Shown piece by piece: positions 4,248 to 40,835 of a stretch of 64,000 nucleotides of DNA. The stretch is taken from positions 6,200,001 to 6,264,000 of the forward strand of contig OV121081.1 of the NCBI GenBank assembly GCA_921293015.1, given 5' to 3'. Source of the DNA: Phorcus lineatus (Eukaryota; Mollusca; Gastropoda; Trochida; Trochidae). Position numbers and translations under genes: made by a program. Under the pieces are notes generated by a model. The model had not been told where the DNA came from. It worked only from the letters and a program-made list of their open reading frames with translations, and ran no database searches. Every line of letters starts with the position of its first letter. Position 1 is the stretch's first letter.

Positions 4248-4254
4248 ATCATGA

Positions 4255-17248: not shown

Positions 17249-17734
17249 CCCATCAACGTCTACGGCTTTTTAATCAGCCGTTGCTTCCATTGTAATAAAT
17301 ACGTGTTTCAAAAGGAAGTAACAATACCCCCTATTTTATCCTATCAAGGGATAACATTGGACGTTTAGTAGATTAAATCATGCACAATCATGGTAATATC
17401 AGCACTGGTCGCAAAACGAATTCGAATATTTGAAAGTTTACATCAACATTGTTCTTTACATTTCGGGTGTAACCGTTCACACTAGGGATGAGATGAACTT
17501 ACATTCATGCTATACCGATTCATGCTTCAATCTACTTAAATGAGCCGTGGTATTTTTAAATCGGTAATGTACTATTGTCTTATTTTCGATTTGACTTAAG
17601 TAGCCAAAGAATATTGATCCGTTATTTAAGACTTAAAGATCGTGCTATTATAAGCTTGGGATGCCTTGCACTATTCAAGATCACACAAGGGGGTCGAAGA
17701 AGAACGACCTGGGAATAACTTACAATCATTATTT

Positions 17735-17780
17735 ACAATCTCTGTGTAGGACGAGACTGATTCTGTTTACCTTCTTCACC
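17735..17780 (-). pseudogene. degenerate copy of exon R
   Basis: On the minus strand this reads AGAATCAGTCTCGTCC then TACACAGAG, matching the 3' end of the exon-like segment at 40,836-41,043. Most of the upstream exon is deleted and the donor GT is lost. The downstream intron sequence (TAATGATTGTAAGTTATTC) is also conserved, which shows that the homology extends past the splice site. Non-functional. Confidence 0.4.
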
Positions 17781-18620
17781 TTGTCATCGCCTTGTTTAAG
17801 CTCGGTTTACATCGTGAGTGATTTGAACAGGCTTGCAGTTCCCTAGATAAATGCAAAGATAAGTTTCTGGAGAGACGTGTCAATAAACAGATGTCAATCG
17901 AGTCACTATCACGTTACACTCTACACATGATATGTACGACCTTTTTCAACTAGAATTTTATCATTAACAGACCGTTTTTATCAAGCGAAAATTACAGATT
18001 ACTGTTGCATATAAAATTAACTATTGAAAGATCTACTTTCATTAAGTATATGAAATTATCAAATGAATTAGATAAGGCTCACACTCTCCCTATTCTTTAT
18101 CGACCCTTATCCAGTTCAAACGAAATTCAGAATCACAAGATAGCAATGATGTCAAGCCGCATAATGCAGACTGAAGACACTCTTAATTATGACTTCATAT
18201 CCAATGTGTATTCTTATCAAGATAGATATTTATTGTTCAGATGTGTTCTTTGATTAATACGTTTCTGACGTTAGATCTAGCTACTGATAAGGAAGACTTT
18301 TTCACTGCTATTATGAAACGTTTTAATATGATTATCAGTTGTAAATTGAAAGATTTTCAGTAAGCCATTGTCTAAATCTATAATAAATGACAGCAGGTGA
18401 CCTGACCTTTACAATTATAGTGAACACACTTATATTTGTCATATTGTTTTCCTAAGCGAGTGATTGTTACAGTTAACTGGTTTATATCTGCAGGATTTTC
18501 TTCTGTCAATGCTGTTATATTGTTATATATAGTTTGAAAAAATATTCTAATGAATTCACACTTTAGCTTCCTTTTTAATATTCATTTCTTTGCCTGCCAT
18601 GACAACAAATTAAAATTCAT

Positions 18621-18622
<2 letters not shown>

Positions 18623-18667
<45 letters not shown>
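18623..18667. repeat. (AT)n microsatellite
   Basis: About 45 bp of uninterrupted AT dinucleotides. It lies inside the repeated module at the position where copy B is interrupted by the 29.70-30.67 insertion. Confidence 0.95.
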
Positions 18668-18669
<2 letters not shown>

Positions 18670-18728
18670 GTTCACAGCATGATAAATTGAAATAAATCTT
18701 TCCCGATTGATACTTCTCTATTAATACA

Positions 18729-18816
18729 TCAATTTGTCTCAAATATGTCCGGGAGCAATTGAGTAAATGGGTTTGATCTTTCTGGCGGTTCAGTTTTCGT
18801 AAACTCCCCGGACATC
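18729..18816 (-). pseudogene. exon P, copy A (candidate terminal exon)
   Basis: After a minus-strand AG (18,818-18,817) the frame set by exon R reads (R)MSGEFTKTEPPERSNPFT and on to DIFETN, then stop at 18,729-18,731. The copy at 30,724-30,823 reads (R)MSGQFDHTELYDRASPFT and on to DIFVTN. Positions M-S-G, F, T-E, R, PFT, DIF and TN are shared despite many base changes, and the frame stays open in both. I infer a short terminal coding exon of an unknown gene family. The local exon R partner of this copy is not clear, so it is probably a relic. Confidence 0.33.
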
Positions 18817-19349
18817 CTGTCGCAGTTACATCCAAGATGATTACGTGATCACCTTCCCCCACCTGTAGATATGGTTTCCTTTTGAAAATCAAATATAAGA
18901 CATAATGAATTTTTTAGACCATCTATTGAAGGTTCTGGGTGCCGTGCTTTCCATTTTCCCTTCATGTCTTATATTGAACATTCTGCTTACGAATTGCTGG
19001 TAACAAAAATAACATCTGGAAATTGTTACAAAGACAAAATAAGTACATTAAAACATATACCTGTATTGTCTATTGTAACTCGGTGTGCCAGTGTTTCCCC
19101 CAAACAATAAATTACATTCGAAAAATAAATTCTTAAAACGAGTTGTAACCATGTGTCCACATTACCAGACATATCGACCTCTCATGTCAACACCTTTTTG
19201 TTATTAGAATGTACAAATCACGTAACTCAGACATAGATTACTTTCGCATGGTCGTATGTCACCAGGGCAATAACTTAGTTCCTTTCATGACTCGCATAAA
19301 AAAAGGATTTCTCCTGGGGTAAAGATGACCTAGAATTGGGGATGCTTCA

Positions 19350-21450
19350 TTCTCTGCCTCTTTAACTGTGGTCTCGTTCGTTGTCTTTTTTAATAAAACG
19401 TTCTATGGGATAACGGATTATTCTAGTGGATAATAGTGCATTCCCTAGTAAACATTCAGGGTGCCAGATGATCATACGCTAAAATAATACTAATTATTTT
19501 TACTAAGTTTGTCAACATTATAAGTCAAGTACATTATGAATTTACAATATGTACGGATATTAACCTAAATGGATTTAAATTGTATATGTAGTTCCCAATG
19601 CATTCTTATTAAACCGTTTTTGGACTCATTTGTCACTGACACTGACTTATAATGTTTGAAGTAAGTCATTTTAGTTTTAATTCATTGAGGAGACATGGAC
19701 ATTCTACAAATTTCGTTAAAAATGTTTGTTTTTGTCATACCTTGTCTGCCATATTGTACCAAAAGCATTCATGCGTACAAAATGAAATCATTGGCGATAA
19801 CCAGGGGGCTGTGTGTTTGAATAATGCAAACTTACTGAGATGGAGATATCTTTGACTCATCCTAAACATATTTAAGAATGTTTTGAAACACGCTTTTTAT
19901 CTTATCGTTGTGGTTTCCTGACCAGATCTTAAAGTAAAATGTATATATTTAATACCAAAGATGTTAAATACAGTGGTAAGTTATAACTTCTAAGTTCGAT
20001 TTTGTGGTCAGATCTGTATGTTCTTGACAATACCTGACATATGAAATCTATAAATATAATGATAACAGAAGCATCATATTGCGCAACCCGTTAATCAAGT
20101 CATACTGACTCAAGAACATATTATTGACAAACACACTTCAAAACATTTTATGCTGTCATATTTTTTAATTTTCTTGACACTTTAAACAAGTGTAAATTGA
20201 TAGTTGTGTTCAGTTCACCAAACCGGTTACAATAGGTATATATCTTATAACTATCGAATGGGCTTGTTATATCACATACACTGAGAATAATAATTACTGT
20301 CACGTACAGAATGTGGTAATTACCAGGGAAACAAAGCTAAATGATTCATGAAAGTTGATATGTCAAATGGAATTACTAAGGTCAAGGGACAATCGCATGC
20401 GACAATAAGAGGATTCAGGTCTGAATATGAGTTATGAGTTTGTTTGCAAATTTGTAGCGACCTAAACATCATTAAGTGTAAAAGCTGTCTTTGCTTCCAT
20501 GGTTGGAAGGGAGGGTAAATACAGATTTCTTATATTTTTGCTATTTTTCTTCAAACTGGTTTCTCTGCCTCCTTTTCCTTGTTTGAGCCGAGGACACTGT
20601 AAGGTCCTGCCGTTTTCGATTCAAGTGTTTGAATTTTGTCCCCTTGACAATGTTAAAAGTGCATTTGGCTATAACACCTACAATGACTATTCCCGAGGAT
20701 TATATTCTTGATTATTGAAGACCAAAATCATGTTTAATTTTCCTCCAAAAATCATGAAATTCGGTTTTTGGGTTATCTGCCGTTGAAGTGTGCAAATTTT
20801 TAAAAATTAACCAAATTCGAATAGTGGCTGTGAAAAAACCATTACGCATTTGCATGCAGATTCTGGGAAAAACTTGTTTGGCCAATGCTTCAGCTTAAGT
20901 GTGAGCTTAAGTACTAAAATAATACAATTTGCAAGGGCGCAAGGGTCGGACATTTCTAAAACATCAAGACTTTGTTATAATTTACTTCTTTGATTGTAAT
21001 TTTTATGGCATCAACAAGATGCAAGCCTCTACTTACATTTTGAAAATGAAACCCTCGTTAATTTGAAAAGTTTTGGATCGTTCTGCACCTTTGAGTTTTG
21101 ATTGGACGCGAAGCTTATTGTGTCATCTACTCAATAAGCTTACCAGCGTAGCGAGTTTGGCTTCATTAGCATTAGCCGTCTTGATTAAATCTTGGCTACA
21201 CGATTCGTGGATTAATAAACATAACATGTCAATAGCAAAAAAGATTCAGTCTGACTGCATAATCCTTAATGATGAATACAATATTATTGCTCTTTGAAAT
21301 CTTGTCTACAATATTCATAACTTTTTGCATAAATTCATAAAGAAAGAAATGATAAAAAAAATTTTCTAAACCATATGAGACAAAAAACCCTTTTCAACAA
21401 TTAAATAAGATCTGGTCAACAGTCTGTAGCTAGCTTATAGCAACGACTTC
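19350..21450. other. non-coding part of copy A, nothing recognised
   Basis: No gene or delimited repeat. Short frames at 19652-19855, 20499-20711 and 21073-21297 (plus) have no recognisable domain. About 20,315-20,345 faintly resembles the conserved block at 21.6 kb (TTACCAGGGAAACA). Confidence 0.35.
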
Positions 21451-21676
21451 TATAGACAGATAATCAAATAAAACAAAGGTTCAGTTGAACAAGTCGGTAA
21501 TAGAAGGAATATATATCTTATTTTACCTCTTTTGTATTTTGTAATCCAGACACTAGGGAGTATAATTACAACAGAGGAGCACGTGTTTACTTCCCGGGAA
21601 ACAGCAGCTAATTAGAATAACCAGGGACGTTGATGTCACAGGTAGGATGAGGCCACGGAAATAACCTGACACCACC
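21451..21676. repeat. conserved block T, copy A
   Basis: The best-preserved stretch between the two duplicated copies, partner at 32,414-32,648. Shared motifs include GAGGAGCACGTGTTTA, GGGAAACAGC, ACCAGGGACGTTGA and AACCTGACACC. No open frame runs through it. Conservation above its surroundings could mean a regulatory role or simply a slow stretch. Confidence 0.7.
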
Positions 21677-21968
21677 AATTTTTTCAAAATTATTTTTTAT
21701 TTGTTCCTTTAAGTAACCTAGTCAATAATGTACAACATAAAACTTAAAGGTTTTACAATAGAAAAAGTTAAGGAAAGATTCCTTTCAGAATGCAATTATA
21801 ATTAGCTATTGAATAATGGGACGAGTGGAAAGCATTTATTATTGAATTTTTCTATCTCAGTATTTTTTTGGAAATGAAATTTTGTCTGGCATAGTTTTGT
21901 TATGGGAATAAAATATACTACTCACAACGAAATAGGGATTACTTTAGTTAAATAGTTAAATTGTTATA

Positions 21969-23503
21969 AACTAATGTCCAAAAGAAAGTACCCAGTGTAG
22001 TTTTTTTAACATAAAATAACAACCAATGCATATGTATATGCAAATCTTTTTGTTCTGAATAGAATATTCAATTCCTCAGCATATGCAGCAAATTTCATTT
22101 GGTACGAAGTCAAAATTACCGTATGACTGTCAATAAAAGACAGGTGGTATCAAAAACTTAATTTCAGCACAAACCAACAAGGCAATTCTTTTGCAAAATG
22201 ACAAGAAATCTTTATTCAATAACGGGTATGGCGACCATGGGCGTTAATACAGGCAAACACACGTCGACGCAGGGAAGAAGTAAGGCGGCGTATGACCTCT
22301 GGTGGGATTTGCTGCCATTCTTCAATCAGAGCTTGTTCCAGTTGCTGGATCGTGACTGGGGGTGCGGGTCGTCTCCTGATTTGTCGATCCAGGTGGTCCC
22401 ATAGGTGCTCGATGGGATTCATGTCGGGAGAATATGCTGGCCATGGCAAAACGTCGATATTGGCGTTGGTTAGGAAGTCGTTTGTCAGTCTTGCCGTGTG
22501 TGGTCTTGCGTTGTCATGTTGAAAAACAACTCCCTGCGGCTGTTGCTGAATGAAAGGAAGCACAACTGGTCTCAACACCTCGTCTCTGTACCTCTGAGCA
22601 TTCAAATTGCCATGAATAATCACAAGCCTCGTCGTCAGATTTCCGCAGATCCCTCCCCATATCATAACGGACCCGCCTCCAAATGGCCTGACTTCCTGGA
22701 CGCAATTCTGGGCCGTGCGTTCACCAACGCGTCGATACACACGCGCTCTGCCGTCATTTCTGAAGAGACAAAACCTGCTTTCATCTGAAAACAGCACACG
22801 TCGCCAATTACGGAGCTGCCAACGTCGGACTTGTCTTGCCCATGCCAGTCTACGACGCTGGTTTTGGAGAGTCAGCTCTACGCCGCGGTAAGGACGACGT
22901 GCTCGGATGCCATGGATTCGTAGTCGTCGGTACACCGTCTGCCGACTGATGACGCGTCCGAGTGCTGTCGAAGCCGTTGACGTCGCCGTGACAAAACGAT
23001 TGCGCAGATGTATTGTGCGGATGTGACGGTCTTCAGCGGGTGTTGTCACGGGTGGACGACCACTTCTTGGCCTGTCTGATGTATTGCCTGTTTGCCTGAG
23101 TCGTTGCATCAGTCTGGTGATCGTTTTCCTTGTGCAGCCGAAGGTTCTTGCAATGACTGTGTTGTTGGCGCCTTGTTGCGCCATACCGACAGCTCTCTCT
23201 CTTTCCACCTGAGTTAAACGTGGCATACTTTTTGTGGTTTTCTTCCTATTGAGGTCATACCGTGTAGCGAGAGCTGATTTATACTGTCGATATGCACGTG
23301 CATTTTGTGCTACAGCAGGAAACATCTTTTTTGGTGTTTTGCAGCGTTGGGGCGATTATTTTTAATTGTTTTGTCATGCGGTTCCGAAAAAAGATGGGTT
23401 TTCACGTATGGAATAAAATCAAAAAAGTTTGTGGACAAAATTTACATCGAAAAAAAAATTGGTGTTAAATTCATGGGTGGGTACTTTCTTTTGGACACTA
23501 GTT
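21969..23503 (-). mobile_element. complete Tc1-family transposon
   Basis: Terminal inverted repeats at 21969-21994 and 23478-23503 (26 bp, one mismatch; consensus core TGTCCAAAAGAAAGTACCCA) are flanked by TA at 21967-21968 and 23504-23505, the expected Tc1/mariner target duplication. Total length 1535 bp. It holds one intact transposase gene on the minus strand. Intact ends, target duplication and open frame together suggest a young, potentially mobile copy. It is absent from the corresponding place in copy B, so it arrived after the segmental duplication. Confidence 0.95.
22216..23226 (-). CDS. Tc1-family DD34E transposase, intact
   Basis: Catalyses cut-and-paste transposition by binding the element's inverted repeats and inserting at TA. 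The frame is open up to a Met at 23325 (369 aa), but I place the start at the internal Met of MPRLTQVERERAVGMAQQG (23226, 336 aa), which matches the usual 340-aa length and the family's N-terminus. Order, numbered from the 23325 Met: helix-turn-helix 1 (about 37-75), DRPRSGRPP (84-92, the GRPR-like linker), helix-turn-helix 2 (about 95-140), first catalytic Asp in LFSDESRF (181), GGGSVMIWGG (217-226), second Asp in FQHDNARPH (271), and Glu in SPDMNPIEHLWD (306). Exactly 34 residues separate Asp and Glu. No frameshift or stop seen. GC content is higher than that of its surroundings. Confidence 0.96.
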   Translation of the reverse strand: MPRLTQVERERAVGMAQQGANNTVIARTFGCTRKTITRLMQRLRQTGNTSDRPRSGRPPVTTPAEDRHIRTIHLRNRFVTATSTASTALGRVISRQTVYRRLRIHGIRARRPYRGVELTLQNQRRRLAWARQVRRWQLRNWRRVLFSDESRFCLFRNDGRARVYRRVGERTAQNCVQEVRPFGGGSVMIWGGICGNLTTRLVIIHGNLNAQRYRDEVLRPVVLPFIQQQPQGVVFQHDNARPHTARLTNDFLTNANIDVLPWPAYSPDMNPIEHLWDHLDRQIRRRPAPPVTIQQLEQALIEEWQQIPPEVIRRLTSSLRRRVFACINAHGRHTRY

Positions 23504-23511
23504 TAGATTGG

Positions 23512-24759
23512 GAGCAATGTAGCCACTTAACGGCCCCGAAACTTAGGTTTCTGGGCCGCTTCTCAGCCCTGTAGAATATGTTAGAAAAGCTTGATAATTA
23601 AAATGCTTAGCCATAGAAAATAATAAAACATTTTTAAAAAAGGAATGCAGAAATCATCCGCTCTTAGGTCAAAATTTTAGGTGTCCGACTTCGGTCAGTT
23701 TGTGCCCTAGCAATAAACGATTGAATCGCGCACAAGTTATTCAACTCGTTAAACGCTCCCGTAGCTAAGAAGGTATATTAAATACATGGCATGACTGACA
23801 TGAATTGTTGGTTTTGGCAGACTAACTTTGCCACACGGAAGGTGATAATATCAGTAACTTCTTGGTTTTAGAAATCGAAGCGGCAACAGGCATATTCAAA
23901 AGATACATTTCAAGCAAAGTAAAGAGAAGGTAAAGTTTTAAATGGAGATAATAAGCGACTTATACATATTGGATTTTGTTGAACTATGAAACCAAGCTCT
24001 TCAAATTGTCTGACTAATGACCTACAACGACGACACCAAGTCGAATAAAAATATTATGCGTTTTTTAAAACATGCATCACTGTTCGTTGCCAACGTAAAA
24101 TGTCTGGCAAATTAACCGACACTGTCCGAGGTAAGGTCAAAACGATCCTCCAAACCTCGGGCGAGTTAATCGAAACAATTAAAACATTTCTCTAAGGTTG
24201 ATCTACAACTAAAATAAATCTAAATAAATTGAGAATCTTACGTTATAGTTTGTAGAAAATACTTGCATTTAATTTTTCTAAATGTGTAAACGCCATGACC
24301 GTAACTGGCCTAATCATACTTTGAATCAAAATTGTTATGGAAACTGTCTGTTGCTAACTGAAAACAATCGCTAATGATAAGATGGTATCAAAGTCGTCAT
24401 AATAAAGCATCAAACATTTTAACGAGTAAATGAAGAAGTAGTCGTCTCTCATTACCTTTATTAGATATGGACTATAGTCTGTGACATCACAACACAAGAT
24501 GGCGGCTGCCATGGACGAAATTAGCGATGTTTTAGAATAAAGACGATTAAGGTTGGTTCTCGTTATCGTAGAAAGTTGTAAATAGGCCGAACTTATAGTG
24601 AAATATCTCCTTTATTGATCGTCCAAAGCTTATATTATGACACAAAAGCTACCAGACGTCCACCAGACGTCGTTTCCAAAGGGCTGAGAAGCGGCCAAGA
24701 AACTTGAGTTTCGGGGCCGTGAAGAGGCTAGGGGCAATGAAGCCCTTGTTGCATTGCTC
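23512..24759. mobile_element. 1.25-kb inverted-repeat element, non-coding
   Basis: Left arm 23,527-23,570 and right arm 24,680-24,724 are reverse complements over about 44 bp with few mismatches (shared core GGCCGCTTCTCAGCCCT and CGGCCCCGAAACT). Outside them GAGCAATG at 23,512 mirrors CATTGCTC at 24,752-24,759. About 20 bp of the left end are missing relative to the right, next to the Tc1 insertion. The interior has no open frame of length. It lacks a counterpart in copy B, consistent with insertion. Superfamily unknown. Confidence 0.7.
24494..24540 (+). other. start-codon-like AAGATGGCGGC motif with mini-ORF
   Basis: ATG at 24,499 lies in AAGATGGCGGCTGCC, a strong animal initiation context that also matches a YY1-type site, preceded by TGACATCA. 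The frame MAAAMDEISDVLE closes at 24,540. It lies inside the inverted-repeat element. It could be a captured 5' exon/promoter fragment or chance. Confidence 0.3.
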
Positions 24760-24769
24760 TTAGCACCCA

Positions 24770-24845
24770 TACTTTACCATGATAAAGAATCATTTATAAA
24801 TTTGTGGTGGTTGAGGCGAAGTTAACATTGACACTGGTTTTAAGT
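24770..24845. repeat. conserved block U, copy A
   Basis: Matches 33,055-33,125 (shared TGGTGGTTGAGGCGA and ACCATGATAA). It marks the right flank of the insertions in copy A. Confidence 0.6.
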
Positions 24846-25249
24846 GGATGAACATAGAAGAATTCAAACGCAGGGGAAACGGTAACAATGTTTATGTCAA
24901 TGACGTTTCATGCAAAATGTTGCAGGCGGGTGTGATGTACCTGTGAATTACAGGATAACTGGGAAGCTTAACTCATATATGGTAACTCCAGTGAGTTTAA
25001 ATTCGCTTATGGAGTTTAATTCCCTTCAATCCCCACATAATTCCCCACTCACTGGTTTCCCATGTTATGTATTTATCCCACTTGTTTATGTATACTTCAT
25101 CTTAATTGTTATTGTTATCTCATTGTTAATCTCCAATTGTTGTTTCTGTAAACACACCTATACGAAATTGAACTTATGGTCTCAAAAAATTATCAATTTA
25201 GATTTGAATCTCTACTAACGCCCATATTGTATGTGAATAACTTCGTTTA

Positions 25250-26960
25250 TCATAACTGTAAAATAGAATTTGTCTGTTTTATGGATCAACATCCTCGTTC
25301 TTGAGACAGGTTATGTCCCCTACTCATGGGTATGAGGGGTTATTAAACCTATATACAAGAAGAGAGGTGACAAAAATGATCCAAATAACTATCGAACTAT
25401 AACCTTACTCAGATGTTTTTGAAAATTATGTACAAGTATTTTAAATGATAGACTGACGAAATTTACTAATATTTATTAATAAAATAATATCGCCTTCTCA
25501 AGAAGGTTTCAGAAAGGGATTTTCAACAATTGAAAATTTATTTGTCATAAATATGCTTACTCAACTTTTCAAATTAGCAAAGAAAAAATTGTAGTGTACC
25601 TTTATTGATTTTTCTAAAGCGTTTGACAATGTCTGGCCAATAGGAATGTGGCATAAGTTACGAAGTAATGTTATTAAGGGTAAATTCCTTAATGTTGTAG
25701 AAAACATTTAATATATATAAAAATATATAAAATATTAAATCTTGTATTGCTGTGAATAATACACAATCGGAATATTTCCAATGTTACTCTGTTGTGCGGC
25801 AAGGTGAAAACTTATCACCCCTTTTGTTTTCATTATTCAGGAATGACCTAGAGTCCCATCTTTGCAAAGCAGGCTCCACGGGAGCTCAATTTGAATACTT
25901 TAGACGCATTTAATGGATATTGTAAGTTTTGGAAATTGTAAGTTAATATCGCAATAACCAAGGTTGTTGTATTTGGAGGTGGATCCGCTAATAAGTATTG
26001 AACACGTTTTGTTTTTAGTGGTCAAGAAATTCAATTCCAAGACTCTTACACCTACCTTGGTATATCCCTCCATAAAAACAGAAAGCTAGGTTTTGCCATT
26101 AAACAGTTCACGCATAATGCAATGTTTTGTCTTCTGCGTAGAGCAAGAATATAAATAGCAATCTACCATTAGATACTCTCTACAAAGCATTTGAAGTCAT
26201 GATTGCACCTATATTATTGTATGGTTGTGAACTTTGGGGCCATGAAAACACCGAAGTCATTGAAAAACTCCATCTTTAATTTCTAAAACTATCAACTGGT
26301 TTAAGAAATTCTGCAGCTAATTTCTTTGTATGTGGTGAGCTAGGAAGAGAACTATTGAGCATAAGAATATCAAAAAGAATTATCATGTTTTGGCACACTA
26401 CACTTAGTACTGAAATTTTTTTTATCTAAAACTATCTTGGAATACCTGATGCATGATAAGATTTATAATGGTACGGAAAAAGATTGGCTTAAAAAATTTA
26501 AGTATATACTGGATGGATGTGTTCTGAGTGACGTGTTCGCAAATCCATATAAATATTCCCCTAAATAGGTCTCGTCACAAGTAGACATGACATGAGAGAT
26601 CACTTTTATCAATCCTGGCGAAGTTCTGTTCTCAATAGCTCTACAGGAATGTATTACAATCATATTAACGATACAACTTCCTTCGAGCGTTATCTCCTAC
26701 TACAAAAATCTTTATATATTCCAATTTTAAAATTAGAACGAGTACGAGTAAGAACGAGTAATCATAACTTACCGGTAGAAATACCTTACCTGAAATGAGA
26801 TCGGCCCGAGAGTATCTATTTATTTCAAAAACTTTATATATATTTTTACATCACATCAGAATTTTGTTAGTTTAGAAGTCATGAATTTGAACAGTCTGAT
26901 AAAATACTATGATAAAATTAAAATGTATAGAATATATCTCACCTAAAATAAGTTGTTTTC
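25250..26960 (+). pseudogene. decayed non-LTR retrotransposon (RT and C-terminal part)
   Basis: Plus-strand pieces in RT order with many stops and frameshifts: GVIKPIYKKRGDKNDPNNYRT, SQEGFRKGFSTIENLFVINML, TFIDFSKAFDNVW (motif A), a motif B form CSVVRQGENLSPLLFSLF, then VFSGQEIQFQDSYTYLGISL, ILLYGCELWGHENTEVIEKL, and the C-terminal signature RVRTSNHNLPVEI near 26,745. Motif C (FADD) is lost in a deletion near 25,890. The C-terminal RTSNH..PIE-type signature is shared with the LINE at 34.2 kb, so both belong to one clade, which I cannot name with certainty. Absent from the corresponding place in copy B, so it inserted after the duplication. Inactive. Confidence 0.82.
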
Positions 26961-26990
26961 TTCTACTTTAGCTTTCGGATGGCAACATCC

Positions 26991-27122
26991 ACGTGTTAAA
27001 TAGCTGGATATTACTATCGGTCCGTCAAACCCTGCTCACTCTCAAATCTACTTAGTAGGTTATTAAAGAAGGAGAAACTTCAAAATAAATGTCTAACCTA
27101 CTTTAAACGTGTGTGCTATGCT
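26991..27122. repeat. conserved block V, copy A
   Basis: Matches 33,551-33,690 (GTGTTAAATAGCTG, then CGTCAAACCCT, AGAAGGAGA and AACCTAC). Non-coding. Confidence 0.65.
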
Positions 27123-27565
27123 TGTTTTGGATCTCAAGACGTTCATGGAAACATCGAAGCACAACTCAATTATCCAAACATCAAATTACCAGACAGAAAA
27201 AAGAACAGATGAATAATTCAAATTACTCTTATCCCATGAAGGATATCTTAGTAACTAAAATGGGACTGTTAAATAAGGACAAATGTAATCAATTTATCTG
27301 AATGGTCAAAACTGACATATGTTATTTCCCTTTTGTTTGAATATTTACACAAATTATAAAGTGCTAAACGGATTCAAACTACACAATTATCAACCACAAC
27401 TCACTGGTGTCAAGAAAGATGGATTCCAGTCAATGTTCTCTTATAGGCAGACCTTTTCCCTGGGTGTAATATTTGATATCACGCAGGCAGTGTAAGATAA
27501 CAGTTTGAAATAGTACCAACAGGCAGTTCCTGCATTGAAATGAAACACATAATTCTGAATGAATT

Positions 27566-27857
27566 GGTGAGGTGAGGTGAGTTGGTATTTAACGCCGCTT
27601 TCAAGATTATTTCACTTATATCGCGGCTGCTAGTATTATTGGAGGGAGAAAGTCCGCAACACCATTTTGGCTGCGCATTGCGGGGAAACCTGCGAGCTTC
27701 GGCTGGAACTAGCGAACCACGGGTAGTACTGCGCTGAATTTCAGTGTAGCATTGCACCCAAACCTACTGCGTGTAGAACAGTTCTCTACTGTAGACAAAA
27801 TTGCCGGATTCGAACCACGAACCCCCTGATCCGAAGCCGTACGCGCTCCCCCGCCCC
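27566..27857 (-). mobile_element. SINE family 1, degenerate head
   Basis: Minus-strand copy of the element at 50,785-51,074. The 3' tail (plus strand GGTGAGGTGAGTTGG...TTTAACGCCGC) is at the left. The tRNA-like head at the right has a deletion removing most of the A-box (GCGCTCCCCCGCCCC). The B-box region is still visible as GATTCGAACC. Flanks resemble a target duplication around GAAT(G)AAT, not clean. Confidence 0.82.
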
Positions 27858-28169: not shown

Positions 28170-29010
28170 CGAATGAAATGTGTTTCAATTCACACCCGTA
28201 TTTTACATGTAAGTCTAAAAATGTAATTATAGCAAAACTTCCGACAATAAAAACATTTATTACTATGAGATATCATGTTTAGTATTAAAGATCTCATGGT
28301 CCTATATATTAACATGTATAATCAATCTAGGTAAGATTTTCACTTTCACACATTTTTATATGCTTGAAGACTCTGAGTTACTTCTTTACTTGGGAAATGA
28401 AACAGAAATGTTCAACCTTGCTCTTTTTTTCAACTTTGTTTCAACTCAGTAAGAGTCCATAAAGAATTTGAAAATAATATTATCCAAAATAGCAATAAGC
28501 AAAAAAAATAAATAAACCAGACTTGAGAGACGCTAGAGTAGAACATTATATCACTTATGTGCTTTTATTATGTCCTTGAAATCATTCTTTCTTAAAACTT
28601 GATATAGCTTCTGGGTTAAAATGATGAGTTTTATCTAGTAATGTTTCTGTTAACAGTTATATTTCCTATTTTCATACCTAACAGAGAGTACTGTTAAGTT
28701 CATGTTATTATCTGATTACTCCTCTGATGTAAATACTAAAATACATTTTATTTTCCGAAAATGATTAAGAGATTCAGGGTTTATCACCATTTCCAATCTT
28801 TCTTTACCTGTCCCGATAATCATGATTTATTGAGATACATGTTCACAGTGTAAAAAATTAGCAAAACTCACTTTCACTGTTGTATTGTCCCTTTAAGTAC
28901 GATAATTGTCTTAAATTACCCAGGAGAAATATCAAAAATGGATTTGCCCTTTCTGATGGTTGGATGTAGCTGTATATCCGGAGGTCCTGTTGCAGCCGCA
29001 TACTCATTAG
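28170..29010. repeat. conserved blocks W/X and a broken exon P copy
   Basis: Colinear with 36,902-37,540. It includes CAGTTCTTTACCTGTCC-like and ATGTTCACAGT motifs that precede each of the four exon P copies. The P copy here (about 28,940-29,000, minus) has lost its reading frame. Confidence 0.65.
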
Positions 29011-29699
29011 CTTCTTTCGCTCTGTTATTTAAGACATATAGATCGTGCTTTCATAAGCATTGGGATGCATTGCAATATTGAAAATTGCACAAGGAAGTCA
29101 AAGTCTTTTTAAGTCATAGGGGCAAGCTTGATCGGTGCAGAGTTACTATAACATACATGCTTACCCTGAAAATTCTATATGGTACTTTTATTTCAAATCT
29201 ACTTTTATTATTAACAGAATAATTTTGTATTCATATCCAAGCAACATCCAGCTAAAATTACAAGATTTCTCTTGAAGTACAATTTATATATTTATAATCT
29301 CCTGGCCATAAGTATATGAAGTTATGTTTACAATTAATCGCGATCAAGATAGGAAGGATATAAAACACAAAATGTCAAAAATTATGAGAAAGTGAAACTT
29401 ATTGAATATGAGGATTGATTGTACAGTGAAGGCTTTTCAATCAACAAAGGTCTAAAGTATCGTAGATGAAAGCAGGTGACCTTAAAATATAAACAGTTTT
29501 ATTCCCAATTGTTCGTTGTTCTGTAGTCCCGAGCTAGAGAGAGCTATTAAACAAGTAAACAAGTAAATACTCACAGGATACTCTAGTGTCATCAATATAA
29601 TAAATTCATAATGTATTTAGTTTTCAAAGATATAATTCGCAGTTAAGCTTTTTCAATTTTCAGTTCTTTCCTGACAAAGATTCACAGAGATATAAATAA

Positions 29700-30669
29700 A
29701 TAGCAATTGCTTTGCGTCAATCTGATTGGCTGAACACGGTAATAGAAGTTCAGTTCATACCTCCATAAACTTAATTTCGTGACGTCACATCATTTTAAGC
29801 CACGCCCATCGACGGAACTATTTGTAAACAAGTTACGTTTTTCTAAAAATAGCAACACTTTGTGCAATGCCACTCCTTGAAAGTAGGTAAATAAAAAATT
29901 AACATAATTCAGTATGAAATAATTATTGTTGTCAAAGGTTCTAAAGGTAGTACTTTCCATAATAAACAAGAGACCTCTATCAGAAATTACAACCGATCGT
30001 GTTCCACCCCACAGAAGGCAAATGTCATTGTTCAATGCTCTCGCGGCCGTTGCAGGGAGGTTAGCAAAGTAATGTCGTTAAGTTAATGAGCAGAGTGAAG
30101 CTTGGTTCCTCAACAAGTTTAAGAACTGTGTGCTGTTTAATCAGATTCCGTTAGATCAAGATCATAACACCATCAGTATATGGCATCTATGAGGGTAAAT
30201 TCGGCTGGTTTCCTCTCCGAGTTCTACGTTCGCGATTTGTGTTTACAACTGTGAGAACTAGCAATGTCAAGGCCACGTGTGACGGACGTCCGATAAGTTC
30301 ATGGCCACGTGCGTTGTAGATTTTCATTGGCTGATGAACGTTTTGTAGGCGGGGCTAGGGATCCGATGACGTTTTGATTGACATTTTATCTCTTTCATGC
30401 TGTTGAGCGTTGAATTCCTTCGCATATATAGTGCAGCTCTATTTGGTGCAAATATGTATATTTAGAGCAATAAAATGGTTTAAAAACAACTAGTATGTAT
30501 ATATTTATTTATAAGAATTGACTTCAACATTTATTAAGTTCATGGAGGTATAAACTTAAAAACCGATGTGCAAACTCGGCGTAAATCCGCTACGCGGATT
30601 TACACAGTTTGCACATCGGTTTTAAGTTTATACCTCCATGAACTTAATAAATGTTGAAGTCAATTCTTA
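29700..30669. mobile_element. 0.97-kb non-coding element ending in a large palindrome
   Basis: Comparison with the other copies of the module (18.6 and 37.4 kb) shows that this segment interrupts it; homology resumes exactly after 30,669. Inside, 29,755-29,777 (ACCTCCATAAACTTAAT) recurs inverted at 30,534-30,556, and the right end is the palindrome 30,512-30,669. No transposase. The frame 29,790-30,035 is not recognisable. Superfamily unknown. Confidence 0.65.
30512..30669. repeat. near-perfect palindrome, 76-79-bp arms, 3-bp loop
   Basis: Left arm 30,512-30,590 and right arm 30,594-30,669, centred on TAC at 30,591-30,593. The arms differ by a 3-bp indel and a few bases near the centre. GTAAATCCGC and GCGGATTTAC face each other. 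Such a cruciform-capable structure is typical of foldback ends and tends to be unstable. Confidence 0.93.
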
Positions 30670-30723
30670 AATGTTCATTTATAGCATAATTAAATGAAAT
30701 AAACCTTTCACCTCTGTTAAGCC

Positions 30724-30823
30724 TCAATAAATAAATTCATTTGTCACAAATATGTCCAGTGGGAATTCAGTGAACGGGCTTGCCCTGTCGTATAGTTCTG
30801 TATGATCAAACTGTCCAGACATC
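30724..30823 (-). pseudogene. exon P, copy B (candidate terminal exon, open)
   Basis: Minus-strand AG at 30,825-30,824, then G completing an Arg codon in the phase left by exon R. The frame reads MSGQFDHTELYDRASPFTEF and continues PLDIFVTNEFIY to a TGA at 30,724-30,726. This is the longest open version of exon P. No exon R copy was found between it and the next unit, so it may be orphaned. Function unknown. Confidence 0.33.
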
Positions 30824-30899
30824 CTGCCGTAGATCCACCCAAGTTGATTAACTGATTAACTTCACTCACTTTTAGAGGGAGTTTCATTGCTAAAATCAT

Positions 30900-32413
30900 T
30901 AATAAACATTACCGGTTTGAGACCATTTATCTATATTAAGTTTCTGAATGACATTTCAGTTTTAGAAAAGTTAAAATGTTTTGATGTGTTTCAGTGTCAC
31001 TGTAATTTACAAGATTGATTTTTCTCCCACACAAAATAGGCGTCGTCGTTGTTTTGAACAAACATGGCTGCCATCAAAATATTCAAGAATTCAACAAAAC
31101 AATATCAACTATAGATCAAAAATTAGCAAGACTCATTCATCATCAGGGTAAAACATAAAATCACATGAAACCAATGACTTCAAAACATAATTTATTTTCG
31201 GCAATTGTTACTGCACAAACGTGCATGTCAGATACGTCTTCTGACGGTTTCGATCCAGTTCAGACACGCTCGCTCGAAACATATATGCACAAGGGCGTTC
31301 TCTCCCATACATTGTGTATCTGTATTTGGTTCTCATTAAACGCTCTTTACACAATTCATAGGTTATACGATAAGAGTTATCGTTTTTGATAGTGGCAAGA
31401 AGACTGATTGAAAGCAACATCAAAGAGGGGAAATGTTTTAATTTCAGATTAGTTGACAATATTGACATACAAACATGTTACTTTCTTCTTTATTAATCTT
31501 AAAGATATTGCCCCTTTAATCTGATGAAATCTTACGAAATTTACAGGTTTTCCAATTTCGGTTTCAACATTGTGCCTTCAGTCACTCGCAGGTAAATTAA
31601 GTAGGGCGTGACGGCGCACTAGGTCAAATACGCGTATTTATTAGATTGAGTATGTTTTGTCATGATATATATGTGACTCAGATATCAAAATCATGTAGTT
31701 TATTATTTCGGGAAAACTTTTCGTTTGTTTCTTTGCGTTTTGTAACAGAATTACATTGTGTAGCGTTGTTGACTAATATACTTCCTCAGATGTTTGTTTT
31801 TACACGAGTATGAACACAGATCAGCTGATGGATGTCACTACATCAGTATAATGTCTCTAAATCGTAATCGGTTTTATTTGAATCGGATATGGGTAATATG
31901 TAGAACATATAATATGTATAGAACTTGGTTCGAGAGAATACGGGAAATGCTTCTAATGCACTCGTATAAATAATCTTCATTCATTCAACTCCAGCATATT
32001 TCCCGTAGTCACTCACAAGACTTGTAAGATTAGAAGTGAGTCATATATGTTTTATTGACAAAGGAGACTTGCCACTACACATTTGACAGCCATAGTTTAT
32101 ATCTTATGATACAAAATTTTAAAAAAAACAAATCTGTGCATCTATATATTCATGCTTGCCTTTGAGTGAATTTTAATATGATAGATTTATAGCATTTCAA
32201 ATTTAAATTCTTAAAAAAATTATTGTATAAATAATGAAAGGAAACAATACAAAAAATAAATGATCAATACAATATTATTTATTTTGATTCTCTCTACAAA
32301 ATGCATCAATAGATGTATTCATTACTTCAGAAAAAATGCTACATTGTGTTTTTTCTTAAAAGGAAAATGGACTAAAACGCTTACTTGTATCACTAATTTA
32401 TAATTCAGTCCCT
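30900..32413. other. non-coding part of copy B, nothing recognised
   Basis: Overlapping frames 31165-31389 (plus) and 31208-31468 (minus) are open but show no known motif. No repeat boundaries seen. Confidence 0.35.
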
Positions 32414-32648
32414 TATAGACAGATAATTGAGTAAAGACAAAGGTTCAGTTTAGCAATCGGTAATAGAGTGAATAAATATAATTAATTATACCTCTTTGGT
32501 ATTTTGTAATCCAAACGCTAGGTAGTATAATTCCTTGAGGAGCACGTGTTTATTACCAGGGAAACAGCCGCTGATTAAAAAAACCAGGGACGTTGACGTC
32601 TGTAAAGGGCGTGATAAAGGGCAAGGAAAAAACCTGACACCAAAAGGT
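32414..32648. repeat. conserved block T, copy B
   Basis: Partner of 21,451-21,676; see that entry for shared motifs. Confidence 0.7.
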
Positions 32649-33821
32649 TGTCCGTGACTTGACAGTAATCGTTAGCGTGTAATCATAGGATTTCTATGCA
32701 AATGTGTTCCCCTTTATATTAATATTTTTAATAGCTTTATTAACACTGAAAACACACTCAATTACAATACATTTGTAAATTTCAATTTTTCTTATTTTGG
32801 TTATTGAAAAAATAGTACCGACAATTCGATAGGGATCAATCTAATCAGTCAGCACGTGGGTGATGATTATCTAAAAGAGTGAATAGATAAGGAAGAAAAT
32901 TCATGAAAGGAAGGGGGCATTGTGAAAGACGGAGGGAAGTAATGGTCATATAAAGAGCGACAATTTGGACTGATTTCTACAAGTCGATTTGCCAACACCA
33001 GAGGAAGTTCAGCTCTAGCTGGCATAGCTGTAAGGACCTTTGAAGCCGCATAATATTTCACCATGATAAGGTATCATCAATGGAGTAAAATTATGGTGGT
33101 TGAGGCGACGTTTACATTGAGATGGTTCAGACTGCAAGTAGAAATATATGTAAGAACTATGATAATAGGTAAAAGTAAAGGATCTATCGGTAATGCAGGA
33201 GAAGTAATAATGAATGAATCTCATTTGGCCCAATTATAGTCCACTTACGAAACACTTGCGAATCACCATGTGCAGCATTTGTACAAGCATACGTCATTGA
33301 TAAGAATTTGTAAATAAAATTAAATAATTTCATATACAAGTTATTATTATGCTCATGCAAGGTAACCAATACTCCTGAAATGTAACTTAGGAGTTTTTAC
33401 CTTAACACTTTTTTAAAATCTTTCTATATTTTCTTTACATGTTATCAATTCGAGAAACTAAATTCTGTTTGAAAATACATCATAGTTCCAGAAATTATTT
33501 ATTTGAACAGTCAGGTAAAAATTCCATTAACCTATTGGTTGACAAATATAACGTGTTAAATAGCTGAATATTGCTTACAGCACGTCAAACCCTCCTCACT
33601 CAATTGAAAAGCATTTCAGTATGTTGAAAAAAGAAGGAGAGAAGTTCAAAATAACTGTTTAACCTACGTTAAAGTGTACATATGTGATTACCAAGTGTAT
33701 TCTCGTGGCACTAATGATGAGAAACCGAAAGAAAAATTAATGATAAAAAAATCCATATTAGCAGACAAAACATTGGATGCATTATTCAAGTTTATCTTTT
33801 ATAAGAATAATGAACAAGATG

Positions 33822-33920
33822 CGAGGAATTACGGTTTTTCTGTCCTGAGTGGATTATTGTTATAAATTCCGAGCTTTATCACAATAATTCACGAGGGACA
33901 GATAAACCGTAATTCGGAGC
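33822..33920. repeat. hairpin, 40-bp arms
   Basis: Left arm 33,822-33,861 and right arm 33,880-33,920 pair with several mismatches (GAATTACGGTTT and TCTGTCC shared). Shortly downstream TTTCTTACCCAAG (about 33,950) is mirrored by CTTGGGTAAGAAA at about 36,090, beyond the LINE, so a small inverted-repeat element may have been split by the LINE. Confidence 0.6.
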
Positions 33921-34182
33921 TTCGAGTTGGTTATTTTTTTTCTTACCCAAGTCAACTTTAGCAATATTAATGGTACTTTGTGGAAAATACGTTCGTGAAG
34001 GCGAGTCACAAGTAAACTCGGTCATTGTATTCATTCGCGACCAACAACGATTATGTCATGGCGCAGTTAAATGTAGTCTCTGCATTTCATTACATATTTG
34101 TGGATCACATATCAAGCAAGACAATCCTAAATGAACGAAATAGTAAAACAAACGACATACAAAACATTTTAGGTTTCATATT

Positions 34183-34194
34183 ATTCCATACGAA
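34183..34194. repeat. LINE target-site duplication, left
   Basis: ATTCCATACGAA, repeated exactly at 35,906-35,917 just after the A-tract of the LINE. Confidence 0.85.
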
Positions 34195-35905
34195 TTACAT
34201 ACGATAGTTGAGAAGTGTCTTAGTATAAAAGGAAATAAATTGTACGCCTTGTTTATCGATTTTAAAAAAGCGTTTGATTCGATACAGAGAGCAAAACTTT
34301 GGGAGATAATGGAGGCACACGGCATAAGTCCTAAGATGAATACTTTGTTAAGAAGCATTTATGACAATGTAAAAGTGTGTATCAGGAATAACCATGACGT
34401 TTCAGATTCCTTTACTTGCAATGTTGGCTTAAGACAAGGTTGTATTTTAAGCCCGTTTCTGTTCTCTATGTTTATAAATGAATTTGCTTCTATTATTCAA
34501 AATAGCTCTTCTCATGGCGTTCAGTTACACCCGTATATGACAGAATTGTTCCTACTGTTGTTTGCGGACGATATGATTCTATTTTCGACGAGTATTTTCG
34601 GGTTACAGCGACTTATAACTGAATTAGAACGTTATTGTGATGGTGCAGGGCTAACTATCAATATGGAGAAAACTAAAGTTATAGTATTAAAAAACGGAGG
34701 TAAGCTGTCAAAAAAGGAAAAGTGGTGTTTTTAAGGTCAGCCGCTATTTGTTACGAAATCATATAAATATCTTGGAGTTTACTTCTCAAATCGCCTTTGC
34801 TTCTTAGAGCATGCGAAATATTGTTCCACTCAGGCCAAAAGGGTACTAATTGGTGTTCTTAAAAGTATTAGTAAACTTGTTGATATTGATTACAAATCAT
34901 TTTTCAAAATATTTGACTCGAAAATTCTTCCGATTCTAGTGTATGGATCAGAAGTGTGGGGATTTAAAAATTTTGATGTTATTGAGAAAATACACTTCAC
35001 ACTACACTAGCTAAAGCAAGAATAATAAAATTTTGGATTCGCCTTTTAAATATGCCTTCTATAGATATCCACGACAATGTTACGATATGATGAGTTTGTA
35101 TGATAAGAGAGGAAAGACGAATTGGGTATCAAACATTCGGGAGTTATTAAATACAATTGGATATGGGGATATATGGCAGAGTCAAAATGTTAATTTCCAT
35201 TCAAATTTTGTTAATAATGTCACACAGAGACTGAAAGATATTTTCACACAAGAATGGGCTACGTCAATATCACTTTAAGCAAATGTTTTTGCTACAGAAT
35301 ATTTAAATAATATTTTTACAGAGAGTATTATTTGAGTTCATTAAATATAAGAAATTTCCGGAATGCATTTGCACGGTTTAGGTGCTCATCACACGATTTA
35401 GCAATAGAGACTGGAAGATATCAGAACATAGCAAAAGAAAATAGGATTTGTAAGTTGTGTAATCTAAATTGTTTGGAAGACGAATATCATTTCCTTTTAA
35501 TTTGTCCTATGTATGCTGACCTGAGAAAAAGCCATATTCCTCATTACTATTTCATACATCCAAATAGGTTAAAATTCTCTCTCCTGTTAAATGCTGATAA
35601 TACTATTCTTATTCGCAAGTTATCAACTTTTATTTATCATGGTATGCTACTTAGAAAGAGTTCTATCTAAATTATATAATTGTACTGTATACTTTATTGA
35701 CTGATTTATTGGTTTCTTTACGATAAATTGTGATAACATAGATAGTATTTATGTATATTTGTAAATGTGTTATATGTTTGACATGAATGCATATTAATTT
35801 TTTCCCTGTAAAGGTGTTTTTATATGTTAAATTCTATTTTACATTTGTAACATATTTGTACTATAGGCCTGTGGCCTTTAAGTTTTGAATTGAATAAAAA
35901 AAAAT
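34195..35905 (+). mobile_element. 5'-truncated non-LTR retrotransposon with TSD and poly-A
   Basis: It begins within RT just upstream of motif A (VEKCLSIKGNKLYALFIDF), ends with an A-rich tail (about 35,894-35,904) and is flanked by a 12-bp exact target duplication. Length 1.71 kb. It sits between blocks V and W of copy B, where copy A has no LINE. Confidence 0.92.
34205..35670 (+). pseudogene. LINE ORF2 remnant: RT palm/thumb to C-terminal CCHC
   Basis: Frame 34,240-34,734 holds RT motif A (ALFIDFKKAFDSI), motif B (GLRQGCILSPFLFSMFINEF) and motif C (LLFADDMILF). The catalytic Asp residues are present. A stop follows KKEKWCF, and the same frame continues with KSYKYLGVYFSNRL and ILPILVYGSEVWGF. 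Further breaks near 35,000 and 35,280 lead to 35,332-35,670 with FRCSSHDLAIETGRYQNIA and the CCHC knuckle CKLC...HFLLIC. It is less decayed than the related copy at 25.3 kb. The EN domain and upstream RT are missing through 5' truncation. Confidence 0.9.
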
Positions 35906-35917
35906 ATTCCATACGAA
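35906..35917. repeat. LINE target-site duplication, right
   Basis: Exact repeat of 34,183-34,194. Confidence 0.85.
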
Positions 35918-36149
35918 ATAAAAAACATTGGTTTTTTTTAAGTCTCGTTGACACGGGTACGATGGATTCAATGAATCGATTGAATAGAAATAGTTCTGTC
36001 AGCCAATCAGATCTCGAGTTATTTTTAAAAAAAACTGTAATTCCCGTTACCATTATGAAAACTTTAATACCCGGCATAATTGTGCCCGCTTGGGTAAGAA
36101 ACTTTAATTTATGATATTAATTCATGGCCTTCAGAAATATGTTCTATGT

Positions 36150-36465
36150 GAGGTGAGGTAAGTTGTTGTTTAACGTCGCTTTCAAGATTATTTCACTTAT
36201 ATCGCGTCTGCTAGTATTATTGCAGGGAGTAAGCCCGCAACACCATTGTGGCTATGCATTGCGGTGAAACCTGCGAAAAACAGCTGGAACTAGAGAGCCA
36301 TGGTGATACTGCGCTGAATTTCAGTGTAGCATTGCACCCAAACCTGACTGCGTGTAGAACAGTTCTCTACTGCAGACAAAGTTGGCGGGATTTACGGGAT
36401 TAGAACCATGGACCTCCTGATCCGAAGCTGAACGCGCTAACCACTGCGCTATCCCGCCCCTTGTG
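36150..36465 (-). mobile_element. SINE family 1, near full length
   Basis: Minus strand. The tRNA-like head at the right end reads GGCGGGATAGCGCAGTGGTT (A-box) and has a degenerate B-box; the body is shared with 27.6 and 50.8 kb, and the tail TTAAAC..CAACTTACCTCACCTCAC is at the left. CTATGT at 36,144-36,149 and 36,466-36,471 is a short target duplication. There is a small insertion in the head between B-box and body. Confidence 0.88.
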
Positions 36466-36470
36466 CTATG

Positions 36471-36900
36471 TAAACAAAGGAATATGTTCTTTTTCAATTC
36501 TCAGTAATCAACACTAGCATATTCACTGGTAACTACTATTGTCTCATGCATTGTGCAGACTGACAGCAGAAACCTATGATCTATAGAACAGCTCCCTGTA
36601 TTTTATTTAAGATATAAATGCTGCTGTGATTATATATGGAACGCATTGTTCTAATAACGATCACACACGGACCTTGAAATAAGATGCACTCAGGAGATAC
36701 AAGCATATTAAGAGACTGGTGCAACTGACTCTGCTTCGCATTGCGGTTATACCTTTTGTGACTATTTACACCATGATTGACTGGGGAAAACATACAATTC
36801 AATTCTCTACAAGCTATTGTTGATTATCTTAGTTAAGTATGATGATGAAACAGGACATCTTTTTTATTTTAAATCGAAAGAATATCATTTATTTACAAAA
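36471..36900. other. non-coding, one open frame of unknown meaning
   Basis: Minus frame 36,581-36,802 shares only QLHQSL-type wording with the frame at 17.0 kb, too little to call homology. Confidence 0.2.
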
Positions 36901-37494
36901 TTAAATGTTTCAAATCACATCCTTTTTTAACTTTTAAACTGTAATTATAGCAAGTCATCCAACGACAATAACGTTTATTCCTGTTAAAGATCATGTTTAC
37001 TGTAAACGATTTCCTGGCATGTAATATCTATCACATATTTTCATATGACTTTGAAATATTGAGTAATTTCAATAGTTGTGATATGACCCTATGACAGATG
37101 CTAAGATCAATTTGGTTCCAAATGATTATAGTATGTCTTCAAATCATTACGCTCATCAAACTTGAAATAGCTTCTATGTATGAATGATACGGTTTATCTG
37201 GTAAAGGGTTTCTGTTAACAAATAAAAACCTGCATAATCATCTGATGTCAACACTTTAAGTTAAAATATATCATATTTTACTTATAATACTTATTACTTG
37301 AAAAGAAGTTTATCGCCCTTTTCAATTTCAAGTTCTTTACCTGTCCTGATGTCCATGATTCATTGAGATGTATGTTCACAGTATAAGAAGTAAGGTCGCT
37401 TTCACAACTGTATTGTCTCTTTAAGTAAATGAATGGTCTTAAATATACCCAAGAGAAATATAGTAAATGGGTTTGCCCTTTCTAGCGGTTCTGT

Positions 37495-37516
37495 TTACTT
37501 AAACTGTCCGGATATC
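37495..37516 (-). pseudogene. exon P, copy C (early stop)
   Basis: In the phase of exon R this copy reads (R)ISGQFK then TAA at 37,495-37,497, so the conserved C-terminal 22 or so residues are lost, although the DNA beyond the stop is still recognisable as exon P. It is the nearest exon P downstream of exon R (40,836-41,043). Confidence 0.35.
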
Positions 37517-37728
37517 CTGTCGCGGCTACATCCAAAACGAAAGACTGACCGGCTTCCTTCACTGTTTATGGAGATAGATGGTGTTTCAATCTAAGAAAAT
37601 ATATCGAAATAATAGACCAGTTGTTGTTCCTGGTCTTTATTTCCTTGTTTTTCAAAATGAAGATTCTGCTGAAGAGATGTAGAGAACAAACCGATGGTTT
37701 GAATAATGCCACACGTCCTACTCCATAA

Positions 37729-38111
37729 GGCTGAGTTTCCACCAAGTTTCACGTGACATGTGACATGTCACGTGACAAGAAATAGAAACATATGATTTTA
37801 GTAGGAACCGTTTCCATCAATGTCACTTTTCACGTATCACGTTTCACGCGTGAAATGACACGTTTTCAAAGAATGATCATGTTCATTCTTTTTACCCGTG
37901 TCATGTCACGTTTCTGTCCGATCTGGGGTTTCCCCTGGGTTTTCCAGAGTTTACTTTCCCTCTTGGTAACTCCACGTGATCGTATCGAATGTAAACAGCC
38001 TGTGTATGACATGTGACACAGGTTGATGTGAAATCCAGTGGAAACCCTATATGTCACGTATCACGTGTCATGCGTGACACATGACACGTGAAACTTGGTG
38101 GAAACGCAGTC
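37729..38111. mobile_element. PIF/Harbinger-type MITE, 383 bp
   Basis: The inverted ends share a core, GTTTCCACCAAGTTTCACGTG less its last base (left GGCTGAGTTTCC, right reverse complement GACTGCGTTTCC). TAA flanks both sides (37,726-37,728 and 38,112-38,114), the 3-bp TWA duplication typical of PIF/Harbinger. The interior is dense in CACGTG, ACATGTGACA and TCACG motifs. No coding potential. It interrupts the duplicated module, whose homology with copy A resumes near 38.1-38.3 kb. Confidence 0.85.
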
Positions 38112-38899
38112 TAAGCGTTTTCGAATCCTCGGAGCACCCCCAAAACCCTGATCTCCTTCACGACAAATGCATCGTATAGCTAGTTATATGACTCTCCAAT
38201 GTCACGCCTCGCATCAAGCAATAGCGGCATTTCATTGTGAAAAACATGTACACGCATATACGATAGCCATGAAGAACTACCTGTAAGCGATACATAAGAA
38301 GAGGCTCTAGGGATTCAAGTAAGCTGGTGCAGAACGAATGTTTGAAAGAGAAAAATGGTAAATTTAAAAAAGGTTAGATAAACTATTGAATGTTTTAAAT
38401 GTTTCTCTTTTATTCATATGTTGAAAGTTGACTGTTCGGCACGTTGATGATTTACCATTGAAGGATGAGACGAACGTGAATACCAAACTGAAACTTAATT
38501 GTACAGTTGAATTGATTTAAGGTTATATGAAACAGCCCTGATTTTACTAAGCAGATACATAGGTTTATGTTCACAATGTAAAATGAGCGTTTATAGTAGT
38601 AGTCTAGATTCGGATAATACGGAGTATTCATTGTCTTCACAACCAGACACATCGATCTTTCATGTGGACAGCATTATGTAATTAGAAAGAATAAAGCAAG
38701 TAACTCAATCAGACATCTTAGATTACATTACTTGCACATGGTTGTATGTCACCAGGCTAACCAATTGCCTAATTCCTTTCAGAACTTGCATCACAACTTG
38801 ATTTACTCTTCGCGTAAGGATGACCTACATCTTAGGGAGGTTTTCTTGCTGTAAATAATTCATAAAACCATTATTTCAGATTTTAATCATATGTCTGGG

Positions 38900-40830: not shown

Positions 40831-40835
40831 ATTAC

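Follow-up and report, generated by a model that had tools for sequence, protein, structure and literature searches.

We describe a tandem duplication in the gastropod Phorcus lineatus, found in a 64,000-nucleotide stretch (the window; bases 6,200,001–6,264,000 of contig OV121081.1, which is C1 of the 74 contigs in the 958-Mb genome searched; guanine-plus-cytosine content 35.5%). Two units, A (17612–29003) and B (29015–37533), lie next to each other on the plus strand as direct, colinear copies. The duplication is real, old, local, non-coding, and decayed, and we hold it very probable that the unit copied already contained two related modules, M and M'. Unit A carries blocks and modules P, PQ, M1, Q, N1, N2 (with a left part, T), U, V, and M2; unit B carries P, PQ, M3, N3, U, V, and M4. 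Positions follow window numbering, and blocks and modules are on the plus strand unless stated otherwise.

Colinear Blocks in Two Adjacent Units

Self-comparison of the window (E 1e-5, pairs of at least 60 bases) recovered all six block pairs named in the original prediction, every one a direct repeat with identical order and orientation, as that prediction had held. The first, P, is 82% identical as 17618–17699/29021–29103 and 80–81% identical with its wider limits (17612–17699 in A, 29015–29103 in B). The pairs that follow are 18314–18403/29393–29482 (74%), 21451–21674/32414–32642 (81%), 24769–24839/33053–33127 (78%), and 26991–27112/33551–33677 (79%); the last runs as 28139–28299/36864–37017 at 70% and then as 28779–28954/37308–37483 at 77%. 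In total the comparison gave 31 repeat pairs, and those outside the blocks include a short interspersed nuclear element (SINE), a second dispersed repeat at ∼43–55 kb, a short tandem repeat (10.1 kb), and a repeat of 151 bp around a frame resembling that of a long interspersed nuclear element (LINE).

A sensitive search lengthened the named blocks and added new ones. Its reversed-sequence null reached 53.3 bits, with the next value at 43.4; several short blocks fall below that maximum on bits alone and were therefore retested with shuffles and profiles. The shuffle windows were picked post hoc, after the matches had been seen, in three test sets of 18, 8, and 7 pairs without correction, and both the 500-shuffle retests and the empty-site tests used Markov-sampled shuffles that do not exactly preserve composition. 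PQ (17928–18070/29193–29336; 91 of 141 positions identical), the left part of T, the right part of V, N1, and a P remnant past unit B each passed with 0 of 200 shuffles as good. Block U (24731–24889 in A, 33001–33176 in B) is identical to its partner at 110 of 154 positions (0/500 shuffles). Not passing were the left part of V (29/200 shuffles as good), the right part of T (11/200), and U beyond 24839 on its right (114/200). Block V (26831–27232/33399–33800), detected by self-comparison and tested with shuffles, was retained because its right part, outside a dispersed core, is homologous (27100–27250 vs. 33670–33815; 95/129 identical, 0/500 shuffles). Block Q recurs after M1 (19112–19351) and after M4 (38591–38847), with 176 of 239 positions identical and 0/200 shuffles as good.

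Roughly half of the element-free sequence aligns between the units (∼45% of A and ∼55% of B, estimated by hand). The junction at ∼29004–29020 joins the end of M2 to the start of P in unit B and holds no repeat that would reveal a copying mechanism. A weak match between 17622–18153 and 36603–37137 (51 bits) is below the maximum of the reversed null and was not used; a short P-like piece within it, 36603–36679, has a profile E of 0.0011, which is only suggestive. Other weak matches between the locus and its 104-kb surroundings did not exceed the null of that search (53 bits) or were repeats, and these were dropped.

Local Blocks and Dispersed Patches

Two sequences can share an order of repeats because members of dispersed families happened to land twice in the same succession. 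Parts of U and V invite this explanation: in B, sequence 32997–33074 adjoining U, and hence block U up to 33074, is dispersed, as is the V core at 33551–33603, some copies of which extend to ∼33467–33669. But at least six blocks follow one order, and M, N, Q, the right part of V, and the core of U were found at this locus only among the best-scored candidates of searches with limited sensitivity. When the whole genome was queried with N2, the only matches were N2 and N3 (both candidates scored), and a query spanning 28.08–29.52 kb matched only itself and 36.9–37.5 kb (likewise two of two candidates). Neither M4 with Q (best 40 of 551 candidates) nor M1, Q, and N1, covered by a query of 18.4–21.5 kb (best 40 of 127 candidates), was recovered away from the locus. 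The remaining matches in those candidates were, for the M4/Q query, a miniature inverted-repeat transposable element (MITE) and 38147–38229, the latter outside both blocks, and, for the 18.4–21.5 kb query, a dispersed repeat at ∼20393–20897.

At the sensitivity reached, the blocks are thus local outside two dispersed patches, and the arrangement named at the outset as fatal to the duplication, blocks scattered through the genome in other orders, was looked for among the best-scored candidates of these DNA searches and not found. The N2 query missed N1, and the partner of P was missed by two queries; absence elsewhere is therefore weak evidence. Taken with the shared order, these results make a chance succession of dispersed repeats very unlikely.

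The Strongest Match Is a Pair of Independent SINEs

The best match in the window, 27567–27847/36148–36438 (85% identity with gaps), is precisely the kind of pair that dispersed repeats would produce, and it does not serve as evidence of duplication. It consists of two plus-strand SINEs, at 27567–27861 in A and 36148–36460 in B, whose flanks are not homologous (on the left, 193/200 and 167/200 shuffles were as good; on the right, 77/200). Each shares ∼92% identity with L036, a third copy, while the two differ from one another at 25 of 237 columns (∼89% identity). Relative to ten other copies, those 237 columns hold 12 changes found only in the A copy and 13 found only in the B copy; the two departures from consensus that A and B share are both present among the ten. 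A tree groups the B copy with L036 (support 92), and by eye the short flanking repeats are not the same (TGAATRAAT for the A element, TGTKCTATG for the B element). Unrelated flanks, the lack of private shared changes, the tree, and the different flanking repeats together indicate two separate insertions, and a shared insertion predating the duplication is rejected on the flanks and the substitution pattern. The longest run of the sensitive search, 27567–29003/36148–37533, takes in this non-homologous SINE. The best-scoring match between duplicate copies can thus be a false friend.

Modules and the Order of Events

Four M modules were delimited by the sensitive search: M1 (18314–18957), M2 (28068–29014), which ends at the junction, M3 (29393–30963), which is interrupted by a palindromic element, and M4 (36794–37713). 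Among 163 core columns, 12 sites favor the split M1+M3/M2+M4, compared with three and two for the other splits (bootstrap 100), and a longer alignment of 561 gap-free columns gives 46 versus 15 and 13. Modules pair across units, which argues that M and M' were distinct before the tandem duplication.

This leads us to infer the following order of events. The ancestral segment, non-coding and a few kilobases long, would have had the order P-M-(Q)-N-U-V-M', with M and M' as older duplicates of each other that predate the tandem copying. Direct tandem duplication of the segment, by unequal exchange or end-joining, would have given A and B, which would since have accumulated many sequence differences, shed some of their pieces, and taken in different transposons, some of them very recently.

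The simple two-copy picture with a clean diagonal, as first proposed, is contradicted by additional pieces. Besides four M modules there are three N modules: N1 (20140–20409), which is extra in A and identical to N3 at 170 of 259 positions (0/200 shuffles), and N2 (21266–21685) and N3 (32257–32653), each with its left part T and each identified by self-comparison, sensitive, and genome searches. An inverted N fragment lies on the minus strand at 17251–17329 (nhmmer E 6.6e-6), and past unit B lies a fifth, partial P-like copy (40787–40930; 104/139 identical to 17683–17832, nhmmer E 7e-6); in both cases the profile model was built without the sequence in question. N1 and N2 form a second, smaller direct duplication inside A (20208–20389 vs. 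21479–21660; 120/175 identical).

Four M modules, N1 beside N2, the inverted N fragment, and the P remnant at 40.8 kb could be what is left of a tandem array that was once longer, or could stem from several local events instead of a single two-copy event. We regard this as possible but doubtful. Profile searches with nhmmer over 104 kb around the locus revealed no further copy of P, M, or N; the best match outside the locus not due to dispersed repeats was to Q, at E 0.007, in a search whose reversed control reached E 0.023. The M tree is moreover consistent with one duplication of a unit with two M modules.

Private Transposable Elements

The transposons named in the original prediction are present: a Tc1-type element, an element with terminal inverted repeats (TIRs), and a LINE in A, and a palindromic element, a LINE, and a MITE in B. 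They are members of dispersed families and, with the exception of the 1.21-kb TIR element, most are clearly younger than the duplication. Divergence from the best relative of full or nearly full length is ∼0% for Tc1, 1% for the palindromic element, 4% for the MITE, 5% for the LINE in B, and 8% for the LINE in A, in comparison to 26% between A and B.

In unit A, 21967–23505 (minus strand; 1,539 bases) is a Tc1/mariner element. Its 379-aa frame matches HTH_Tnp_Tc3_2 (PF01498) and DDE_3 (PF13358), and TIRs and a TA target are visible by eye. At least 13 full-length copies are 100% identical to it after rounding (best 40 of 938 candidates), indicating very recent activity. The adjacent 1.21-kb element (23520–24730) has 57-bp TIRs and is hAT-like solely in being flanked by an 8-bp repeat, seen by eye, whose two copies differ at one position. 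Its 57-bp ends are 82–98% identical to those of relatives (mostly 91–98%), and bodies are 66–89% identical in pieces exceeding 150 bases; relatives cluster on several contigs, for example at 30.68–30.82 Mb of contig C15. A plus-strand LINE fragment (∼25293–26781), identified by protein-domain scan and genome search, is at best 92% identical to other copies over more than 800 bases. An older dispersed repeat lies between N1 and N2 (20530–21313, bounds approximate).

In unit B, a 980-bp element with palindromic ends (29692–30671, plus strand) splits M3 and is 96–99% identical to at least 39 other copies (best 40 of 1,341 candidates). At its 3' end, ∼160 bases fold as a hairpin (−113.9 kcal/mol), and six insertion sites of the family (relatives L073–L079) show A/T-rich ends and no clear target duplication. 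An older repeat (30964–31986, bounds approximate) is 67% identical to 77893–79050, which in window numbering is downstream of the window. The LINE (34195–35904, plus strand) has a perfect 13-bp flanking repeat, TATTCCATACGAA, and shares 95% identity with one copy across its whole length and 98–99% with others in parts. The MITE (37726–38114), with a TAA flanking repeat by eye, is at best 96% identical over its length to another copy.

Elsewhere in the window, a 776-codon LINE-like frame on the minus strand (1980–4307) lies between 151-bp direct repeats that are 96% identical (561–711/4562–4712), and an exact 108-base direct repeat with a spacing of 104 occupies 10137–10348.

Spacing between Blocks and Empty Sites

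Private elements account for much of the difference in spacing between units. Summed by hand over seven intervals, the absolute A/B differences fall from 8,853 bases to 2,344 without elements, so that ∼74% is explained. The clearest case is the N-to-U interval, which is 3,083 bases in A and 399 in B and becomes 323 versus 399 once Tc1 and the 1.21-kb element are removed (a difference of 2,684 reduced to −76). The proposal that elements explain the spacing therefore stands for N-to-U and for the greater part overall; "almost entirely," as it had been put, is too strong, the M-to-N interval in particular being made worse.

It had also been proposed that the pair supplies an empty site for each insertion. 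Six insertions or pairs of insertions were tested, and the site is clear for the palindromic element only, being empty in all three sister modules (M1, M2, and M4). For the MITE, the left flank is homologous (0/500 shuffles), the right flank is not distinguished from shuffles (37/500), and a restricted splice does not span the site; a spanning alignment was first accepted and then withdrawn after this stricter flank test. For Tc1 together with the 1.21-kb element, homology holds on the right flank (0/500) and is marginal on the left (15/500). Neither the site of the LINE in A (38/200 shuffles as good) nor that of repeat 30964–31986 (12/200, and aligned to a repeat) is usable, and the LINE in B gave no spanning alignment. 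The pair thus dates one insertion cleanly, not each.

Divergence and Points against a Single Duplication

Of the 1,878 sites aligned over nine block pairs, 491 (∼26%) differ between the units, and Kimura two-parameter distances over ten block pairs range from 0.18 (N) to 0.49 (PQ). Divergence on this scale bears on the assembly. That the two copies are haplotypes placed end to end is extremely improbable: they are adjacent on one contig, nothing specific points to an artefact, and their 26% divergence, coupled with nested insertions that are not shared, far exceeds allelic levels.

Several observations weigh against an old tandem duplication with subsequent private insertions. Divergence is uneven over the nine blocks (chi-square 28.7, 8 degrees of freedom, p = 0.0004; without N, p = 0.07), and N differs at 36 of 231 sites, against 455 of 1,647 for the remaining eight blocks together. 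M2 is further than M4 from the outgroup (27 vs. 9 sites, p = 0.003, and 59 vs. 30, p = 0.002, when a longer stretch is compared). No clear rate difference was found for M3 versus M1 (28 vs. 17, p = 0.10; longer stretch, 58 vs. 55, p = 0.78) or N3 versus N2 (23 vs. 29 sites). Shuffle-tested comparisons of the sequence surrounding the SINEs, from V to M', found nothing alignable between A and B. Removing elements enlarges the M-to-N difference from 1,015 to 1,254, and ∼1.3 kb of net spacing is unexplained, chiefly from M to N, where N1 and Q are present in A and not in B. With relatives of only 66–89% identity, the 1.21-kb element is not clearly placed after the duplication. Lastly, the whole-genome searches overlooked known block copies within the window itself.

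We read the uneven divergence and the excess in M2 as slight indications that constraint was uneven or that conversion took place, and they do not amount to a finding. Selection could have kept some modules, N in particular, as a cluster of non-coding regulatory sequences, with the unevenness reflecting constraint and not chance, the alignment ends chosen, or gene conversion, which we consider very unlikely. The duplicated segment is most likely without function as a unit.

Search for Coding and RNA Signal

Conserved islands of ∼80–400 bases amid poorly alignable sequence are exon-like, and blocks might accordingly be exons of a tandem-duplicated protein-coding gene. By hand count over ten block pairs, however, only one of 60 frames stays open in A and B alike (in P, 88 bases), 73 of 86 gaps have lengths not divisible by three, and open, frame-preserving homologous exons were not found. 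Mismatches are distributed over all three codon phases, as judged without a statistical test. Among ten window frames scanned, no Pfam match was found in 16880–17269 or 17954–18250, and frame 24904–25215 has a below-cutoff match to TMEM72 (E 0.003). On their sequence, the blocks look non-coding, and a duplicated gene is very improbable. Consensus folds are weak (−6.2 kcal/mol for M and −4.0 kcal/mol for N), and conserved RNA structure was rejected. The sole match in an Rfam scan of the window is a transfer RNA (RF00005) at 50787–50853, a position that overlaps a SINE copy.

Comparison with Known Systems

The locus adds one more case to a well-known class. As a resolved case, it shows the decay of a non-coding tandem duplication in a genome rich in transposons, and for one young family, that of the palindromic element, it provides a clear paralogous empty site. 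Among the titles and abstract openings that a literature search returned, nothing specific turned up.

As in tandem segmental duplications generally, adjacent colinear direct copies meet at a junction and have later private insertions and losses. Direct adjacent copies in one order, blocks confined to the locus at the sensitivity reached, and a paralog tree that pairs modules across units place it in this class. It differs in that the copies are old (26% of sites differ) and about half of the element-free sequence aligns. Paralogous, or related, empty sites serve to date transposon insertions, and here the sister modules likewise show the site without the palindromic element; unlike in such dating, the sites of the other private elements tested are not reliably readable. 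Bivalve genomes are reported to have many recent transposon lineages (PMC10294476), and the SINE, LINE, and Tc1-type elements of this locus are a point of resemblance.

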